Shown: piece by piece, positions 1 through 41,836 of the stretch
Layout of the letters: each line of letters begins with the position of its first letter
Position numbering within the stretch: position 1 is the first letter of the stretch
NCBI RefSeq assembly: GCF_003946545.1
Contig: NZ_RHOA01000002.1
Coordinates: 186,001 to 250,000 of the forward strand
DNA from: Levilactobacillus tangyuanensis
GTDB lineage: Bacteria; Bacillota; Bacilli; Lactobacillales; Lactobacillaceae
Reading direction: 5' to 3'
Length of the DNA stretch: 64,000 nt
Notes under the pieces: generated by a model
Told to the model about the DNA's origin: nothing
Seen by the model: the letters and a program-made list of their open reading frames with translations, nothing else
Databases searched by the model: none
Program-made: the position numbers and the translations under genes

Positions 1-739
1 GAAGCTTGGCAACCTTCGCCTTCTGACCAATGGTCTTCATCGCACTAGCCATCAAGTTATCGGTTGGCAGGTACAGACCCGAAATCTTACCGGTTAGGCC
101 GGCCAAGACACTGGTCACGTCGTTGGTGCTCGTCGCGCTGACAACCTTCAGGTTCAGGTGGTGCTTCTTGGCATAGGCTTTAGCCAGGTTCACCTGTAGG
201 ACTGAATTTTCTTCGGATGAGTTGTACATAATCCCTAATGGCTTGTTGCCCTTGGACATGCTGGCTAATAGCTTTAATTGCAGGCCAACCGGCGTTAAAT
301 CACTGGTCCCACTGACGTTGGTTTGGGGCTTGGCATTTGACTTCACCAGTCCGGCGGCCTTCAAATCGGTCACTGCCGTGACCAGGGTAGGCGTGGTGGT
401 GGTTTTCTTGGCCAAGGCCTGGGCAGCCGGTGTCGCAATCCCGACTAGCAGGTCGTTCTTTTGCCGAACCAATTGTTGGCTCATGGTATTGAGGTTAGCC
501 TGGTCGCCCTGAGCGTTTAAGTAGTGATACGTGACCTTGGTGGTCTTGTGATGGGCCTTCAATTCTTGATTCAGGCCGGCCTTGAACCCCTGGCGGCCTT
601 CATCCAATGACCCGTGTTGCACCACCTGTAAAATCCCAACGTTCAGGTTATCCTTGCCCGAGGCTGACTTGCTGGAACAACCGGCTAAAACCAATCCCAA
701 ACTCATTAACGCGAGACCACTCATAAGTAATTTTTTCAT
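1..739 (-). CDS. TrpX-type ABC transporter substrate-binding lipoprotein (partial, C-terminus off window)
   Basis: This reading frame starts at an ATG (739-737) with GGAGG upstream and runs off the left edge, so about 246 residues are visible. The N-terminus is a lipoprotein signal with lipobox LVLAGC and Cys21. The mature part matches the ABC_sub_bind/TrpX family: it carries VGIATPAAQALA and YNSSEENS-like segments that align with the paralogue at 2569-3561 (VGILQ, IGIATPAAQALA, IYTSSDDS). Its permease and ATPase are presumably beyond the edge. By family it binds a small solute, probably an aromatic amino acid, outside the membrane. A Phe-rich micro-ORF and terminator upstream suggest phenylalanine-linked attenuation. 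Solute identity is inference. Confidence 0.85.
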   Translation of the reverse strand, partial: MKKLLMSGLALMSLGLVLAGCSSKSASGKDNLNVGILQVVQHGSLDEGRQGFKAGLNQELKAHHKTTKVTYHYLNAQGDQANLNTMSQQLVRQKNDLLVGIATPAAQALAKKTTTTPTLVTAVTDLKAAGLVKSNAKPQTNVSGTSDLTPVGLQLKLLASMSKGNKPLGIMYNSSEENSVLQVNLAKAYAKKHHLNLKVVSATSTNDVTSVLAGLTGKISGLYLPTDNLMASAMKTIGQKAKVAKL

Positions 740-890
740 TCTCAATTCCTCCAAGGTTATGTTGTTGACCGTTGCCATGCGGTCCATTTTGTATCATTAA
801 ATGTCAAATGACCCAATGGTCAATTCAACCAATGTCAGCAATGACTGGCCGGTGTACGGGGTGTGAGTGATCGGCTCACCTCAGTGACTG

Positions 891-945
891 GCCTGAAAAA
901 ACAAAAAAACACCAGATAGATTCAAAGTAGAATCTACCTGGTGTT
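891..945 (-). terminator. Intrinsic terminator in the leader of the first ABC operon (attenuator arm)
   Basis: On the minus strand a 16-bp stem (arms 945-930 and 923-908, one G-U pair, 6-nt loop) is followed by a T-rich run (907-891). It lies 150 bp before the gene start and after a Phe-rich micro-ORF. The inner stem sequence repeats in the preceding hairpin, so the two can pair alternatively. Confidence 0.85.
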
Positions 946-967
946 TATCGGGCCCGATATTATTTCT

Positions 968-996
968 CCAGATAGATTTTACCCGTATCTATCTGG
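968..996 (-). other. Hairpin competing with the leader terminator
   Basis: A 10-bp perfect stem (CCAGATAGAT / ATCTATCTGG, 9-nt loop). Its 3' arm can also pair with the 5' arm of the terminator at 930-945, and its 5' arm with the terminator 3' arm, as expected of an attenuator. Confidence 0.65.
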
Positions 997-1032
997 CGCT
1001 AAGTCATGCTTAAAAACTTTAGCTAATCGATA

Positions 1033-1065
1033 GATACGAACGCATTTGTGCGGCGCGTTCGTATC
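1033..1065 (-). other. Leader hairpin after the Phe-rich micro-ORF
   Basis: An 11-bp perfect stem (GATACGAACGC / GCGTTCGTATC). It is enclosed by an 8-nt complementarity between the Phe codons (1100-1107) and 1017-1024, which a translating ribosome would disrupt. Confidence 0.6.
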
Positions 1066-1085
1066 CAACGGTGTGAATACAAACG

Positions 1086-1148
1086 CTATCTAAAGAAAAA
1101 GCTAAAGGCAAATTGGTTATTTAAATGATTAAGGCTATTCGATTTCAT
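1086..1148 (-). CDS. Putative Phe-rich leader peptide (20 aa)
   Basis: ATG at 1148-1146, AAAGGG 11 nt upstream, stop TAG at 1088-1086. The peptide reads MKSNSLNHLNNQ then FAFSFFFR: five Phe among the last eight residues, directly before a set of exclusive hairpins and a terminator. The arrangement is that of classical pheA/pheS leader peptides of enterobacteria, where ribosome stalling at Phe codons decides termination. A well-placed promoter (1188-1216) starts the transcript just upstream. The leader role is inference from codon content and RNA layout; no homologue was searched. Confidence 0.6.
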   Translation of the reverse strand: MKSNSLNHLNNQFAFSFFFR

Positions 1149-1187
1149 AATGGCAAAATCCCTTTCATTTATCAATTTACAAGTCTA

Positions 1188-1216
1188 AGTAAAACATTAA
1201 AAAATAACCATGTCAA
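1188..1216 (-). promoter_or_regulatory. Sigma-A promoter for the Phe-rich leader transcript
   Basis: Minus strand -35 TTGACA (1216-1211), 17-nt spacer, -10 TTTACT (1193-1188). Start point would be near 1181, giving a leader of about 440 nt before the ABC gene. Confidence 0.65.
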
Positions 1217-1230
1217 CCCCATAATCTCAT

Positions 1231-2130
1231 TTATTTCTCATTATCCAAATTGAGGAACTGCCGGTAATCGGCATTCCAGGCCAGCCCCATGGCGCCATCC
1301 CCCACGTGAACCCCGAAGCTAGGCCCAATGGTGGCGGACTTCAAGGTCACGGCTGGTAGCTCCGCCTGGGCCCAAGCCAACCATTGCTGAGTCAGCTCTG
1401 GCTGGTCGGCATTCAGCACCGTCACGGTCAGCTGAGTGGCGGGGTGTCCCTTAAGGCTAGCCGTCAACCGATCGAACAGATCGTGCCAGCCACTCTTCAT
1501 TCGCAACGAGCTCCCTGCCACACGAACCTTCCCCGACGCTTCAAAGACCAGCAAGGGCTTACCGGCCAGCAGTTGCGCATTAGCCGGGCCCCGACTGAGG
1601 TTCAGATCGCCGGTTCTCAGTAATGGCTTGATGGAATCCACCACAAAGCCTAGCTGACAAGTGGCCCGTAGCGCTGCCAGTCGTTCCAGAATCGTTGGCA
1701 CATCGAATCCCTTGGCGACCAGAGCCGCCGCTAAGCGCGCCTGTTCACCCATTGGCGTTAACACACCGCGAGAATCCCACGGCCAAATTTTCACGCTGGT
1801 CACATTCTCTGTAAAGGCGCCTAAGGTATTCACAAAGCCGGAAATGCCCTGCGAGGGGCCAATGATGATCACGTCGGTCACGCCCTGTTTCGCCAAGTCG
1901 TCACAAGTTGCAGCAATCGTCTGCATGGAAATCTGCGGTGCCGTGGGAATCATTTTCTCTCCCTTACTCAATCGCACCAACCGATAGTAGTCCGCGGTAC
2001 TCAGATCTTGGTACTCGTGGTACTGCCGATTGCCAAACATAATCGGTGCTGGTAGCAATGTGATCTGTCGTTCCGTGGCTTCATCGAAGTCAATTCCTGC
2101 CGAAGTATCTGTCAAAATTGCTATTTTCAT
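1231..2130 (-). CDS. DegV family protein
   Basis: A 299-residue protein of normal length for the DegV/EDD family, which binds fatty acids and in Firmicutes serves as the FakB fatty-acid carrier for the FakA kinase. The N-terminal segment ILTDTSAGID is the family signature. The C-terminal stretch around IGPSFGVHVGDGAMG matches the usual closing motif near the lipid head group. I take the ATG at 2130, because GGGAGG lies 10 nt upstream; a longer frame starting at 2151 would run through that site. The gene stands alone between two ABC loci and has a long 5' UTR with a stable hairpin. Family assignment is secure, lipid specificity unknown. Confidence 0.85.
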   Translation of the reverse strand: MKIAILTDTSAGIDFDEATERQITLLPAPIMFGNRQYHEYQDLSTADYYRLVRLSKGEKMIPTAPQISMQTIAATCDDLAKQGVTDVIIIGPSQGISGFVNTLGAFTENVTSVKIWPWDSRGVLTPMGEQARLAAALVAKGFDVPTILERLAALRATCQLGFVVDSIKPLLRTGDLNLSRGPANAQLLAGKPLLVFEASGKVRVAGSSLRMKSGWHDLFDRLTASLKGHPATQLTVTVLNADQPELTQQWLAWAQAELPAVTLKSATIGPSFGVHVGDGAMGLAWNADYRQFLNLDNEK

Positions 2131-2145
2131 GGAGCGACCTCCCTT

Positions 2146-2184
2146 AACCAATCACCGCGAGAACTTACCTCACAGTGATTGGTT
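2146..2184 (-). other. Hairpin in the degV 5' UTR
   Basis: A 10-bp perfect stem (AACCAATCAC / GTGATTGGTT, 19-nt loop) ends about 8 nt before the degV ribosome site. On the plus strand it is followed by only five T, so it could be a weak terminator; on the minus strand it is a leader stem. Confidence 0.5.
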
Positions 2185-2264: not shown

Positions 2265-2293
2265 TTGACGACTTTTCGGCAATGCCTTACACT
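2265..2293 (+). promoter_or_regulatory. Promoter of the trpXYZ-like leader
   Basis: TTGACG (2265-2270), 17-nt spacer, TACACT (2288-2293). Transcription would start near 2300, 270 nt before the structural gene. Confidence 0.7.
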
Positions 2294-2317: not shown

Positions 2318-2444
2318 GAAAGTTAGATGCAAATGTCTGCTTACAAACTTAATGGACGTTGGCAAAGCCGGTAATCAAGTCGTCATCGTGTAGATGCGAC
2401 TTGAGCTCCCAGAGCGATTCTCGCATCTGCGCCGGCTAACTTTC
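2318..2444 (+). promoter_or_regulatory. Candidate attenuator RNA with alternative stems
   Basis: Stem A pairs CAAGTCG (2376-2382) with CGACTTG (2397-2403). Stem B pairs AGATGCG (2392-2398) with CGCATCT (2422-2428), and overlaps A so both cannot form. A long-range stem pairs the leader ribosome site GAAAGTTAG (2318-2326) with CTAACTTTC (2436-2444). AGCCGG inside the micro-ORF (2366-2371) can pair with CCGGCT (2432-2437). No T-box AGGGTGG-type element is visible. Confidence 0.55.
2327..2374 (+). CDS. Putative leader peptide (15 aa) with one Trp codon
   Basis: ATG at 2327 follows a strong purine ribosome site (GGAAGGAAAG) and the frame ends at TAA 2374, reading MQMSAYKLNGRWQSR. It holds one Trp and one Tyr codon and is followed by two mutually exclusive hairpins and two terminators, then by a TrpX-type transporter. 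A single Trp is weaker evidence than the usual double Trp of a trp leader. The ribosome site itself (2318-2326) is perfectly complementary to 2436-2444. Leader function is inference. Confidence 0.5.
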   Translation: MQMSAYKLNGRWQSR

Positions 2445-2455
2445 TGATGCAATGG

Positions 2456-2498
2456 CCCGCACGGATGTTTATTATCCGGTTTGCGGGTCTTTTTCTTT
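2456..2498 (+). terminator. First leader terminator of the trpXYZ-like operon
   Basis: Stem CCCGC/GCGGG with inner CGGAT/ATCCG, followed by TCTTTTTCTTT. Confidence 0.75.
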
Positions 2499-2528
2499 GG
2501 GCGCCCAGCCGGTCTGGGCGCCCTTTTT
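2499..2528 (+). terminator. Second, adjacent leader terminator
   Basis: A 10-bp perfect GC-rich stem (GGGCGCCCAG / CTGGGCGCCC, 5-nt loop) followed by TTTTT, 40 bp before the trpX-like start. Two back-to-back terminators ahead of a gene point to controlled readthrough. Confidence 0.8.
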
Positions 2529-2568: not shown

Positions 2569-3561
2569 ATGAAACGAATGTACAGTCTCATCGCGCTATT
2601 ATTAATTTTTCTCGGATTCGCTTTTGTTAAGGAACAGCATCAAACCGCCGCTAAACAAGCGGTCCCAACGGTGGGTATCCTACAATTACTTTCCCACCCA
2701 GCCCTCGATGCCATCCATAAGGGCATCATCCATGGCCTCGCCGAGGAAGGCTATCACGTCGGCAAAAACGTCAAGATTGACTTTCAGAATGCTCAAAACG
2801 ACCAAAGCAATCTGAAAACCATGAGCGCGCGGTTCGTCAACGAAGATGCCGATGCCATGATCGGTATTGCCACCCCGGCGGCTCAAGCGTTGGCCAACGC
2901 CAGTTCCAAGACCCCCGTTGTCCTGGGGGCCATCACGGACCCCGAGGGGGCTCACTTGGTTAAGAGCAATGAGCATCCCGGCAACAACGTCACGGGGGTT
3001 TCCGACCAGGCGCCCCTCAAGTCGCAGCTCCAGCTCATCCAAAAGATCATGCCACAAATGAGGACGCTGGGCATCATCTACACCTCATCAGACGATTCCG
3101 CAACAGCCCAATATCATCAGTTCGCCGCATTGTGTAAAAAGGAACACGTTCGCCTAAAGGCCTATTCCATCGCCAACACGAACGACCTGAATCAAGTAGC
3201 CCAAGAGATGGTGAGCCAAGTCGACGCCATATACGTTCCTACCGACAACACCGTCGCCAGTGCCATGCAAACCCTTGTCGCCACCGCAACGGCCAAGAAA
3301 GTTCCCGTCTTCCCAGCCGTCGACACAATGGTCAAGGCTGGCGGGCTGGCAACCCTCAGCATTAATCAATATAAGTTAGGGGTTGAGACGGGTAAGATGA
3401 CGGCCGCCATTCTGAAGGGCAAGAAGCCGGCAGATACCCCAATCCACTTCGAGCGAACCGGTGAGATGACGGTTAACCTGTCACAAGCCAAAAAACTTGG
3501 CATTACCCTGCCAGAATCCGTCATTAAAGAAGCCAAAGAAAATGGGGAGGTCTTCAAATGA
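2569..3561 (+). CDS. TrpX-type ABC transporter substrate-binding protein
   Basis: A 330-residue protein of the ABC_sub_bind family (TrpX of streptococci), the extracellular binder of a small-molecule uptake system. It begins with a hydrophobic segment (about residues 5-21), but there is no lipobox Cys, unlike the paralogue at the left edge, so it is probably held by an uncleaved anchor or released. The two-lobed core is seen in VGILQLLSHPALD, IGIATPAAQALA, NVTGVSDQAPL and IYTSSDDS. It overlaps the permease gene by 4 nt (ATGA), so the three subunits are translated together. The tryptophan assignment comes from family and leader context only. Confidence 0.85.
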   Translation: MKRMYSLIALLLIFLGFAFVKEQHQTAAKQAVPTVGILQLLSHPALDAIHKGIIHGLAEEGYHVGKNVKIDFQNAQNDQSNLKTMSARFVNEDADAMIGIATPAAQALANASSKTPVVLGAITDPEGAHLVKSNEHPGNNVTGVSDQAPLKSQLQLIQKIMPQMRTLGIIYTSSDDSATAQYHQFAALCKKEHVRLKAYSIANTNDLNQVAQEMVSQVDAIYVPTDNTVASAMQTLVATATAKKVPVFPAVDTMVKAGGLATLSINQYKLGVETGKMTAAILKGKKPADTPIHFERTGEMTVNLSQAKKLGITLPESVIKEAKENGEVFK

Positions 3562-4457
3562 GTTTAGCAGTATCCGCAATCGGGCAAGGCCTACTCTGGG
3601 CCGTCTTAGGGGTTGGGCTATTCCTAACCTTCAGAATCTTAGATTTTGCCGACATGACCGTCGAAGGGACCTTTCCATTAGGCGCCGCAACGGCCGTCGC
3701 CGCCATCAGCAATGGCATGAATCCGCTGTTAGCCACCCTCTTAGCCTTCGTGATCGGTGCCATCGCTGGCCTCATCACTGGGTTACTCTACACTAAGGGT
3801 CACATCCCCATCCTCTTGGCCGGCATTCTGGTCATGACCGCCTGTTACTCCGTTAACCTACGGATCATGGGCCGGGCCAACGTTTCCTTATTAGGGAAGT
3901 CAACCCTGTTTAAGAATCACTTCCTGGCATCACTACCCCAATACTTCGACAGCGTCGTCCTGGGGATCTTGGTCATGGTGGTCATCACCGCCATCGTCAT
4001 CTACTTTCTCCAGACCGAAGTTGGCCAAGGGTTCATCGCCACTGGCGATAACCAAACCATGGCCCGTTCCCTCGGAATTAATACCGACAACATGAAAATC
4101 ATGGGCCTCATGGTCTCAAACGGCCTGATCGCCTTTGGTGGCGCCCTGGTTGCTCAAAACAACGGGTATGCCGACGTGAACATGGGCATAGGCATCATCG
4201 TCATTGCGCTGGCCTCAATCATCATTGGTGAAGTGGCCTTTGGCGACCTCACCCTTAACCAACGACTCGTGGCCGTTAGTCTCGGGAGTATCCTGTACCG
4301 TTTCGTCCTGTTATTAGTCTTGAAACTGGGCTTCAGTGCCAACGACCTCAACCTGATTTCCTCAATCATTCTGGCCATCTGCATGATGTTGCCGGTCTTC
4401 AAGAACATCCTGAACTTCAAACACATCTTGAAACGGGGGTTGGATACCAATGACTAA
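3558..4457 (+). CDS. ABC transporter permease (TrpY-like)
   Basis: A 299-residue integral membrane protein of the branched-chain/BPD_transp_2 class, with about eight to nine hydrophobic helices spread over the whole length. Start ATGA overlaps the stop of the binding protein, and its own end overlaps the ATPase start by 8 nt, so the set is one operon. The segment FRILDFADMTVEGTFPLGAA at residues 23-42 is typical of permeases paired with ABC_sub_bind proteins. It would form the membrane channel for the solute captured by the upstream protein. Substrate not visible from sequence. Confidence 0.88.
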   Translation: MSLAVSAIGQGLLWAVLGVGLFLTFRILDFADMTVEGTFPLGAATAVAAISNGMNPLLATLLAFVIGAIAGLITGLLYTKGHIPILLAGILVMTACYSVNLRIMGRANVSLLGKSTLFKNHFLASLPQYFDSVVLGILVMVVITAIVIYFLQTEVGQGFIATGDNQTMARSLGINTDNMKIMGLMVSNGLIAFGGALVAQNNGYADVNMGIGIIVIALASIIIGEVAFGDLTLNQRLVAVSLGSILYRFVLLLVLKLGFSANDLNLISSIILAICMMLPVFKNILNFKHILKRGLDTND

Positions 4458-5220
4458 ACCATTACTCGAATTAAAAAACGTGGTGTTAAAGGTTAATCGC
4501 AACACACCCGAAGAAATAACCATCCTGGATCATCTTAATTTAACGATTAATGATGGCGACTTCATCACCGTTCTAGGGTCTAACGGGGCCGGTAAATCGA
4601 CCCTCTTCAATGCCATTGGGGGCGACCTCAGCATCGATAGCGGGCAGATTCTACTGAATGGCAAGGACATCTCCCACGAATCCGTTGAAAAACGAACGCG
4701 CTTCCTCGCGCGGGTCTTCCAAGATCCTAAGTTGGGCACGGCACCACGGATGACCGTTGCCGAAAACCTCTTGCTGGCCGAGCGGCGAGGCCAACACCGC
4801 AGTCTGGCTCCACGGCAACTGAATCGACAGCTTGACCGCTACAAGGAACTCACCACGACCATGCATGATGGCCTGGATCAGCGATTAACGACCGCCACTG
4901 GCAACTTATCAGGTGGACAACGTCAGGCACTTAGCTTCTTGATGGCCACCCTGAAGCGACCCGAGATTCTGCTTCTCGATGAACACACGGCGGCATTAGA
5001 CCCCCAAACCAGCCAGGATCTGATGCACCTGACTAACGAACGCGTGCAGTCCGAGGCGCTGACCTGCCTCATGATCACTCACCATTTGGAGGATGCCTTG
5101 ACCTATGGCAATCGGCTGATTGTGTTGCACCACGGCCAAGTTTCTTACGATGTTGCCGGCGCCGAAAAGGCCGCCCTGACTAGCGAAAAGCTCTACAGCT
5201 TCTTCGCCGAAATCGAGTAG
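4450..5220 (+). CDS. ABC transporter ATP-binding protein (TrpZ-like)
   Basis: A 256-residue nucleotide-binding subunit. Walker A GSNGAGKST lies at residues 43-51, the signature LSGGQRQAL near 150 and Walker B LLLDEHTAALDP after it, with the switch His in ITHHLED. The catalytic Glu follows the Walker B Asp as usual. It overlaps the permease gene by 8 nt. A GNAT gene begins at its stop codon. The subunit powers import with the two preceding gene products. Confidence 0.9.
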   Translation: MTKPLLELKNVVLKVNRNTPEEITILDHLNLTINDGDFITVLGSNGAGKSTLFNAIGGDLSIDSGQILLNGKDISHESVEKRTRFLARVFQDPKLGTAPRMTVAENLLLAERRGQHRSLAPRQLNRQLDRYKELTTTMHDGLDQRLTTATGNLSGGQRQALSFLMATLKRPEILLLDEHTAALDPQTSQDLMHLTNERVQSEALTCLMITHHLEDALTYGNRLIVLHHGQVSYDVAGAEKAALTSEKLYSFFAEIE

Positions 5221-33014: not shown

Positions 33015-33131
33015 GCCCGTAATATTTTCGTAAAAAACAATTGCTCCTCTGAACCGCTAAGCGGATCAATCTAATGATTGGTCGGCCCAGTTGCAATCCG
33101 GGAACAAATTGGGTACGCTGGAGACAATTCA

Positions 33132-33212
33132 ATTGAACTGGGGTGCCGCATCGGCTGAGATTAAACCCATTGAACCTGCTCTGGTTAGTACCAGCGAAGG
33201 GAACGCGAACTT
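33132..33212 (+). ncRNA. TPP riboswitch (THI element)
   Basis: The conserved core is present in order: GGGGTGC (from 33140), GGCTGAGA (about 33153-33160), ACCC, TGAACCTG (about 33170) and CCAGCGAAGGGAA (about 33191-33203). A terminator follows 16 nt later, then ykoE. Thiamine pyrophosphate would bind and promote termination. Confidence 0.93.
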
Positions 33213-33227
33213 TCTGCGATCAATGAC

Positions 33228-41646: not shown

Positions 41647-41707
41647 TTTGCCGTTGTTTTTTAAAAATAGCCGTGGTAAAGTAAGTGACATTCCAATAAA
41701 AAATATA

Positions 41708-41788
41708 AGTGATTGCCTATATAATGCCAAGATAAGGTTGGCGAGTTTCTACCCAGAGCCGTAAACTCTGGACTATAAGCAAATTGAG
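41708..41788 (+). ncRNA. Purine riboswitch, guanine/xanthine type
   Basis: Conserved features in order: TATATAAT (about 41718), GATAAGGTTGGCGAGTTTCTACC (two parts, 41731-41753), GAGCCGTAAACTC (P3 loop) and GACTATAAGC (41771-41780). The C in GACTATA corresponds to C74 of the xpt aptamer, which selects guanine or hypoxanthine rather than adenine. Confidence 0.92.
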
Positions 41789-41792
41789 GACG

Positions 41793-41836
41793 AAACTCTT
41801 TTTGCCGATGAAGAGGATTCGTCGGTCGAGTTTTTC
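41793..41836 (+). terminator. Purine riboswitch terminator 1
   Basis: AAACTC / GAGTTT stem enclosing CCGATGAA / TTCGTCGG, T run after it. Confidence 0.75.

Follow-up and report, generated by a model that had tools for sequence, protein, structure and literature searches.

Phenylalanine-codon leader ahead of an ABC transporter operon of Levilactobacillus tangyuanensis: a probable member of a family of aromatic attenuators in Lactobacillales

The minus strand of the 64,000-nucleotide stretch of Levilactobacillus tangyuanensis DNA analysed here (the window) carries a leader made up of a promoter, a 20-codon open reading frame (ORF) ending in FAFSFFFR, a chain of competing RNA arms and a terminator, all ahead of a gene for an ABC transporter binding protein (ABC_sub_bind). 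A first-pass annotation, made from the letters alone, had proposed that this ABC operon is controlled by charged tRNA-Phe through translation of the leader, a proposal that gains support from the conserved codons, the conserved arms, the co-occurrence of leader and transporter, and the existence of sister leaders with other aromatic codons. From these sequence comparisons we put the probability at about 0.86 that the leader is a ribosome-mediated transcription attenuator which senses charged tRNA-Phe and so regulates an ABC importer for an aromatic amino acid, probably phenylalanine, and that it belongs to an order-wide family of Phe, Tyr and Trp leaders. Numbers beginning with L denote fetched loci and those beginning with G denote genomes.

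Anatomy and conservation of the Phe leader

The leader has the anatomy listed here, and every one of its arms is conserved. Promoter, leader, arms, terminator and ABC_sub_bind gene lie on the minus strand of the window; the basis for each entry is given in brackets.

1188-1216 (-): promoter, with -35 TTGACA at 1216-1211, a 17-nt spacer and -10 TTTACT at 1193-1188 (sequence)
1160-1166 (-): ribosome binding site GAAAGGG (sequence; conserved purine-rich site in the alignment of 34 leaders)
1086-1148 (-): leader ORF, MKSNSLNHLNNQFAFSFFFR-stop, 20 codons (sequence and ORF list; tail kept in orthologues)
1086-1107 (-): arm S1, the Phe codons and stop (pairing counts in 56 leaders)
1075-1086 (-): arm a, GCGTTTGTATTC (a:b pairing counts)
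1055-1066 (-): arm b, GGATACGAACGC, partner of a or c (b:c pairing counts)
1017-1043 (-): arm c, GCGTTCGTATCTATCGATTAGCTAAAG, partner of b, d or, through its tail, the Phe codons (c:d pairing counts)
984-996 (-): arm d, CCAGATAGATACG, partner of c or e (d:e pairing counts)
968-978 (-): arm e, AATCTATCTGG, partner of d, S1 or f (e:f pairing counts)
946-959 (-): perfect 14-nt palindrome, TATCGGGCCCGATA, inside the loop of the predicted e:f antiterminator (hairpin pairing counts)
930-944 (-): arm f, 5' arm of the terminator and 3' arm of the predicted antiterminator (pairing counts)
902-923 (-): arm g, 3' arm of the terminator and U tract (terminator scan and f:g pairing)
1-739 (-): ABC_sub_bind substrate-binding lipoprotein of 322 aa, extending past the window start (PF04392; the portion inside the window scores 170 bits)

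The promoter, ribosome binding site, 20-codon ORF and terminator that the first-pass annotation had placed ahead of the binding-protein gene were all confirmed in the sequence. The TTGACA/TTTACT pair was absent from the list produced by a sigma-70 scan, the filter of which demands an A at position 2 of the -10 box; in an alignment of 34 leaders (the window's own and 33 others) TTGACA is invariant and the -10 box reads TT[T/A]ACT. The ATG and stop of the leader ORF are likewise retained throughout that alignment, where its length is 20 codons, and in other genera it has 20-23 or more. Its Phe codons are residues 13, 15, 17, 18 and 19, i.e. five in the last eight codons. Within arm S1, TTTCTTTAGATAG (1098-1086) is able to pair with arm e and CTTTAGCT (1107-1100) pairs exactly with AGCTAAAG (1024-1017), the tail of arm c; this second pairing, already noted in the earlier annotation, holds in 444 of the 448 cells scored across 56 leaders. 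The annotation had also described three stems with competing arms. The competition was borne out and the count was too low: there are seven alternately pairing arms as well as the terminator, neighbouring pairings being mutually exclusive, and the whole chain runs from S1 through a-g with a short palindromic hairpin besides. The terminator scan placed the terminator, with its T tract, at 946-907 (-). The folding energy of the leader was -89.3 kcal/mol (z -8.8) and, in a second folding run, -85.1 (z -9.5), with none of 200 shuffles as good in either case.

Pairing was counted in an alignment of 56 distinct leaders out of 65, L047 and eight duplicate segments having been dropped; 30 of the 56 (L067-L096) had been picked by the leader pattern described below and are no test of that pattern's conservation. 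Paired cells numbered 668/672 for a:b, 616/616 for b:c (with three pair types at one position), 556/560 for c:d (with both-side changes at two pairs), 555/560 for d:e, 681/718 for S1:e, 594/616 for e:f and 849/889 for f:g (with both-side changes at six pairs), a range of 94.8-100% for the competing helices. Read as a hairpin, the palindrome is paired in 349 of the 356 cells with letters. Shifting the partners by 1-3 columns reduced pairing from 98% to 23-46%, part of which drop is expected, as one of the sequences had served to define the arms. In the terminating set of helices (b:c, d:e and f:g) both sides were changed in 66 cells, against 22.8 in shuffles (0/500 as high), and in the antiterminating set (a:b, c:d and e:f) in 8, against 3.7 (2/500 as high). 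In the most distant leaders, L095 and L096, arms c, d, e and f have changed jointly with the alternative pairings retained, as judged by eye. The e:f helix excludes f:g and d:e excludes c:d, as in an attenuator, and all four are conserved; that mutually exclusive pairings are all kept is the mark of a switch. The palindrome at 946-959 is itself highly conserved, and may serve as a pause site, as a DNA site or as a hairpin aiding the antiterminator.

The alignment of regions upstream of orthologous ABC_sub_bind genes, which the first-pass annotation had suggested as a check, came out in favour of its proposal. FAFSFFFR-stop with all five terminal Phe codons is present in 33 of the 34 named loci found via the transporter protein (orthologue identity of at least 76%), with the competing arms kept; in the other one, L047, the leader cannot be read as the contig ends before it. 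Lactiplantibacillus plantarum is among the species with a Phe-type leader (L051). Codon changes over FAFSFFFR in the 33 loci are confined to TTT/TTC and AGA/AGG, and the contrary outcome that the annotation had named, i.e. relatives with the stems but without the ORF or its Phe codons, did not occur. A 35th locus of the protein search, L066, holds an Enterococcus paralogue (43%) and has a Trp leader instead (by eye). A degenerate leader pattern (FAFSFFF, an Arg-type codon and a stop) was then run on 397 Lactobacillaceae genomes and was present in 56 of them, in 5 of 40 genera; its backward control gave none among the matches listed for the same 397 genomes. In all 30 loci fetched by the pattern, an orthologue of 59-87% identity followed directly in the same orientation. 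Among 151 genomes searched with both pattern and protein, the pattern occurred in 11/11 having the orthologue (taken as a binding protein with an E-value no higher than 1e-89, the next lowest value being 4e-60) and in 0/140 others. The Levilactobacillus genomes G033 and G034 have neither the leader nor the Phe-leader binding protein, and retain the Trp-type protein alone.

Leader type across the transporter family and in two Rfam families

Phe and Trp versions of the leader stand side by side in this single window, the Trp version belonging to a divergent paralogous operon on the plus strand.

2265-2293 (+): promoter-like site TTGACG-17-TACACT of the divergent operon (promoter scan)
2327-2374 (+): sister leader ORF, MQMSAYKLNGRWQSR-stop, which contains a Trp codon (motif in relatives)
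2454-2528 (+): a tandem pair of terminator-like hairpins belonging to the Trp leader, at 2454-2497 and 2499-2528 (terminator scan)
2569-3561 (+): TrpX binding protein (NCBIfam NF041285, 490.6 bits, above the cut-off of 390; PF04392)
3558-4457 (+): permease-like ORF (ABC transporter model matches, below the model cut-offs among the matches listed)
4450-5220 (+): ABC ATPase-like ORF (ABC transporter model matches, below the model cut-offs among the matches listed)

A gene for a DegV-like protein (named by eye) lies between the two divergent operons, at 1231-2151 (-). In 20 of 28 loci an LNGRWQSR ORF lies no more than 350 nt from the paralogue. The DNA motif of LNGRWQSR is present in the other eight, seven of which (L038, L041, L043, L044, L046, L049 and L061) have it 395-814 nt upstream of the TrpX gene, with unexplained sequence between. 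The 22 distinct Levilactobacillus Trp leaders that were aligned had been chosen by a pattern containing the motif, and so are no proof of its conservation.

The Phe-leader binding protein is 96% identical to its counterpart in L. senmaizukei and scores 302 bits against NCBIfam TrpX (NF041285), under the cut-off of 390. In locus L001 the ABC_sub_bind gene is complete, and the next ORF, of 323 aa, is presumed from its position and appearance to be the permease; it had no NCBIfam match at 1e-10. The PF04392 family includes three solved relatives, 3lft, 6hni and 3lkv, the ligands of which are Trp, Tyr and Phe. A family search found no prephenate dehydratase in the genome, and 14 of 14 control genomes have one; the cell therefore probably depends on imported Phe.

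To the two binding-protein loci of the window we added 114 others from Lactobacillaceae, giving a family set of 116 rows. A script labelled the leader as aromatic in 102 of the 115 rows with a readable gene (83 of the 102 with a ribosome binding site flag) and as none in 13; one label among the 102 is wrong (L190, where the ORF that was labelled lies 650 nt ahead of the gene). The common leader shape is (H/Q)LN-x-aromatic run-R or G-stop, with tails of Phe type (FAFSFFFR, FFGSFFG, SFFFGFFR), Tyr type (AYYYGYYG, RYYYSYFR and the mixed RFYFSYFR) and Trp type (RWQSR, AWWQSQL, AWWWLG). Nearly every Phe/Tyr leader and most Trp leaders (L032-L096 and L137-L310) have a Q-L-N or H-L-N directly before the aromatic tail, and the Asn of this motif is almost always AAT (132/137).

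The binding-protein tree was built from 114 of the 116 rows, leaving out L243, in which we could find no ORF for a binding protein, and L213, the ORF of which is truncated (235 aa), and it contains two main, fully supported groups that differ in leader type. The Phe/Tyr group (42 rows) comprises 20 Tyr, 18 Phe, 4 none and 0 Trp leaders, and the other group (72 rows) comprises 62 Trp, 9 none and a single Tyr label, the wrong one of L190. The labels change 17 times on the tree against a mean of 47.5 in shuffles (0/200 as low); near copies add to this clustering, but the two groups are separated by a deep split. Phe and Tyr leaders occur intermingled in the first group, apart from the window's own branch, which is all Phe (7/7). 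On a looser look, Trp-ending ORFs turned up in five of the nine Trp-clade rows labelled none (L179, L198, L206, L236 and L249), with no convincing one for L188, L192, L224, L234 or L190. The none rows of the Phe/Tyr clade (L169, L171, L172 and L189) each follow a further binding-protein gene of their genome at short distance and, judging by this position, may be second genes of an operon. Because the leader codons shift among Phe, Tyr and Trp according to transporter clade and, as set out below, downstream pathway, it appears that the amino acid is set by the codons. In some genomes, binding-protein paralogues lie next to each other and have leaders of their own that differ in Tyr/Phe codons, i.e. 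L143, L146 and L153 (G137), L147 and L152 (G043), and L149 and L151 (G111); these form a natural series for specificity tests.

A scan of positions 700-2700 at E up to 5 matched two Rfam families alone, RF02863 (Enterococcus sRNA_2410) and RF04312 (the trpB motif). The Phe leader matched the whole RF02863 model at 884-1105 (-) with 37.7 bits and E 4e-4, a relationship by E-value that does not reach the gathering score of 61. Both window leaders matched RF04312 (27.7 and 26.8 bits, E 0.34 and 0.52) below its gathering score of 59, the weaker of the two being the match of the Trp leader at 2387-2498 (+). Among 148 Lactobacillales genomes RF04312 had a match at E 0.001 in 87 (above the cut-off in 35) and RF02863 had a match in 83 (above the cut-off in 37), counts that are not exclusive, as weak RF04312 places overlap RF02863 (e.g. 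in G484, G532 and G410). For each family we read 30 loci, the best of 103 (RF04312) and 114 (RF02863) listed places, all of them above the cut-off except L280.

A Trp-containing leader (e.g. WQSWRR or WQNWRR) was present at the start of the RF04312 model in 30/30 loci (L251-L280) and, under a stricter rule, in 28/30 against 43/1410 control windows. Where our first script found this leader, in 27 loci, its end lies 9-21 nt ahead of the model; the three that this script missed (L261, L266 and L268) were read by eye and later found by script. Downstream of RF04312 we found a binding protein in 24/30 loci and trpB in three of the other six, the remainder having no ORF of at least 110 aa (L254 and L269) or an intron-like reverse transcriptase (L251, by eye). 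In the RF02863 loci (L281-L310) a YFSYFR-type Tyr/Phe leader ending just inside the model start was found in 29/30 by script, under a looser rule that has no control of its own, and in L294 by eye; a strict rule demanding a ribosome binding site and at least four aromatic residues in the last nine gave 14/30, an undercount, against 3/1472 in controls. The downstream gene encodes a binding protein in 13/30, a shikimate dehydrogenase-like protein (aroE) in 16 (confirmed in 4/4 checked with Pfam) and DAHP synthase in one (L307). Since a Trp leader ORF precedes it in every locus read, RF04312 probably represents the 3' portion of a Trp attenuator. The RF02863 members read begin in a Tyr/Phe leader and stand before aroE, a DAHP synthase gene or a Tyr/Phe-type transporter, so that this sRNA is probably a terminated attenuator leader. 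For sRNA_2410 of Enterococcus faecium, a length of 195 nt was reported from RNA-seq, and Northern blots showed two transcripts (PMC5593968), a picture that a terminated leader might produce. Other riboswitch models matched elsewhere: the Na+ riboswitch model RF03071 at L104 505-564 (+) in genome G129, near a binding-protein gene and on the strand opposite the leader, and, above the gathering score in the window, TPP at 33129-33219 (+) and purine at 41697-41795 (+).

The modelled switch and alternative explanations

Transcription attenuation by the translating ribosome, with predicted readthrough of the terminator during Phe starvation, is the most likely mechanism of the leader, and could proceed as follows. 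In the absence of translation, or with the ribosome at the stop codon masking arm a, the d:e helix (or S1:e) would hold arm e and the f:g terminator would form. When Phe-tRNA is short, the ribosome would stall on the Phe codons, masking S1 and leaving arm a free; a:b would then form, followed by c:d, and arm e would be released. If e then paired with f before g had been made, the terminator would fail and the transporter genes would be transcribed. We modeled these states by equilibrium folding. For the window's own leader with the A site on F15-F18 and the RNA made up to arm f, the predicted P(e:f) was 0.97-0.98; before f was made, P(d:e) was 0.99 at the stop, 0.08 at the F17 stall and 0.00 at F15. 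The full untranslated RNA gave a P(f:g) of 1.0. Across the 56 leaders e:f changed between F17 and the stop with the expected sign in 40, and with the opposite sign in none.

The modelled switch thus has mixed support, and several results weigh against our interpretation. An F18 stall in the window's own leader gave a P(d:e) of 0.96 before f, so that in the model only stalls up to F17 differ at this stage. P(e:f) was 0.75 even at the stop when f was present and g absent, so that kinetic (co-transcriptional) folding must be assumed. P(d:e) before f was clearly higher at the stop than at F17 in just 28/56 leaders, the other 28 having no clear difference and none a reversed one, and S1:c was predicted to form only before d is transcribed (0.97), then to be replaced by c:d and S1:e. 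Equilibrium folding therefore backs the switch in part: its direction is right, and a sharp switch is not predicted in every species. The e:f helix is the weak point of the alignment, with a U-U mismatch at one pair in 16/56 leaders, and the antiterminating set has just 3 pairs changed on both sides (1.7 in shuffles, 13/500 as high). As the leader nucleotides are near-invariant, constraints on codons and on pairing are hard to separate. The substrate of the importer, probably phenylalanine, is inferred. Among 20 other Lactobacillaceae leader stretches just 3 reached the RF02863 cut-off, and 20 further Lactobacillaceae loci (ten with and ten without a trusted aromatic label) had no Rfam match at the gathering score. 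No expression data for a lactobacillus were found in the literature searched.

The conserved peptide raises the alternative that the leader is an arrest peptide, in which a nascent chain comprising Q-L-N and the aromatic tail stalls the ribosome on free Phe or another ligand and not on uncharged tRNA; TnaC is such a peptide and responds to tryptophan. The Leu of the LN motif is kept despite its six codons (TTA 16, TTG 17, CTA 5, CTG 28, CTT 2 and CTC 2, i.e. 70 of 73 unique Phe/Tyr ORFs, the filter of L, V, I or M before N having admitted at least three chance ORFs), which argues for selection on the peptide; LN is also present in 28/30 RF02863 leaders (by eye), and R or G is common before the stop. 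However, the aromatic residues switch with the transporter clade, as codon-specific sensing predicts, several Trp leaders have no LN (e.g. L252, L254 and L260), and a sensor of free ligand would be expected to stall at plenty, opening an importer at the wrong time. We therefore consider a simple arrest peptide very improbable. A modular form, in which the shared Q-L-N would prime stalling in the tunnel and an exchangeable Phe, Tyr or Trp tail would set the specificity, with RF04312 and RF02863 as the 3' halves, seems unlikely to us; if true, it would mean a single order-wide, nascent-chain-assisted sensor of three aromatics in Lactobacillales.

A riboswitch or protein-binding RNA, which would bind its ligand directly and make the ORF incidental, corresponds to the published guess for the trpB motif. 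The accessible part of that work classes RF04312 as a strong riboswitch candidate, found mostly before an uncharacterised amino-acid-like ABC transporter, but its authors did not exclude a classic attenuator (PMC11109978). The very conserved palindrome in the e:f loop, which is unexplained, would suit such an RNA; the short Trp-codon ORF directly before the model start in 30/30 RF04312 loci and arms that alternate as attenuator arms do make it a poor candidate, with a probability of only a few in a hundred. Stable 5' terminators that simply limit expression are common in Firmicutes (PMC2965389), and the terminator here is stable. However, several genera keep the ORF, its Phe codons and the helices that exclude one another, and sister leaders carry other aromatic codons; a constitutive terminator with a chance ORF is already contradicted by this conservation, and we give it almost no weight. 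T-boxes are frequent for amino-acid transport in Firmicutes and one controls trpX in Streptococcus suis, according to the available text of PMC9382623. The window gave no T-box match at the gathering score, nor did positions 700-2700 at E up to 5, and with no covariance model match we rejected this identity, which we consider the least credible of all. The T-box family in Rfam is RF00230.

Comparison with known systems

If our interpretation of the leader as an attenuator is correct, Lactobacillales sense all three aromatic amino acids by leader peptides, as opposed to the usual T-box view of Firmicutes. It offers a testable identity for a published riboswitch candidate, the trpB motif with its more than 900 examples, and for an Enterococcus sRNA, and it would make the leader codons a simple predictor of substrate for many unassigned ABC_sub_bind transporters. 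Ribosome-mediated attenuators are a known kind of element; leaders with Phe, Tyr or Trp codons were not described for Lactobacillales anywhere in the literature searched, which left most subscription papers outside it, and such leaders, apparently unreported, would be of wide reach.

Leader-peptide attenuators are well known from the trp, pheA, pheST and his operons of proteobacteria, the his leader having a long chain of alternating arms. The Phe leader shares with them a leader ORF with cognate codons, alternative arms and an intrinsic terminator, and its long chain of arms resembles that of his; it differs in that no sequence relation was detected in the scan of 700-2700, and in that it controls an importer in Lactobacillales. 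The contrast drawn in the first-pass annotation, that such attenuators are classic in proteobacteria while Firmicutes mostly use T-boxes, needs softening, because His and Leu leader peptides in Firmicutes (PMC2965389, PMC9413887 and PMC5794164) and a Phe candidate in Acholeplasma (PMC8632094) are in print, in so far as the accessible parts of these papers extend. The His and Leu leaders are of the same kind as ours with different amino acids, genes and lineages, and within the same three papers it is T-boxes that are named for the histidine genes of Lactobacillales. The Acholeplasma candidate, uORFC-13-1, is described in the available text as a predicted upstream ORF with at least one Phe codon before aroF (24 examples); it shares with the Phe leader an upstream ORF with Phe before a terminator and a position ahead of an aromatic pathway gene, and differs in lineage and gene, the likeness being one of description.

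The closest comparisons are with the two Rfam families and with another transporter of the same family. RF02863 is filed as an sRNA gene, and the window leader scores below its gathering score. RF04312 follows the same logic with Trp codons and is filed as a strong riboswitch candidate, the window matches again being below gathering. The T-box of trpX in Streptococcus suis controls the same transporter family in response to tRNA charging, but there the RNA reads the tRNA directly, with no leader peptide named in the part of the paper available (PMC9382623).

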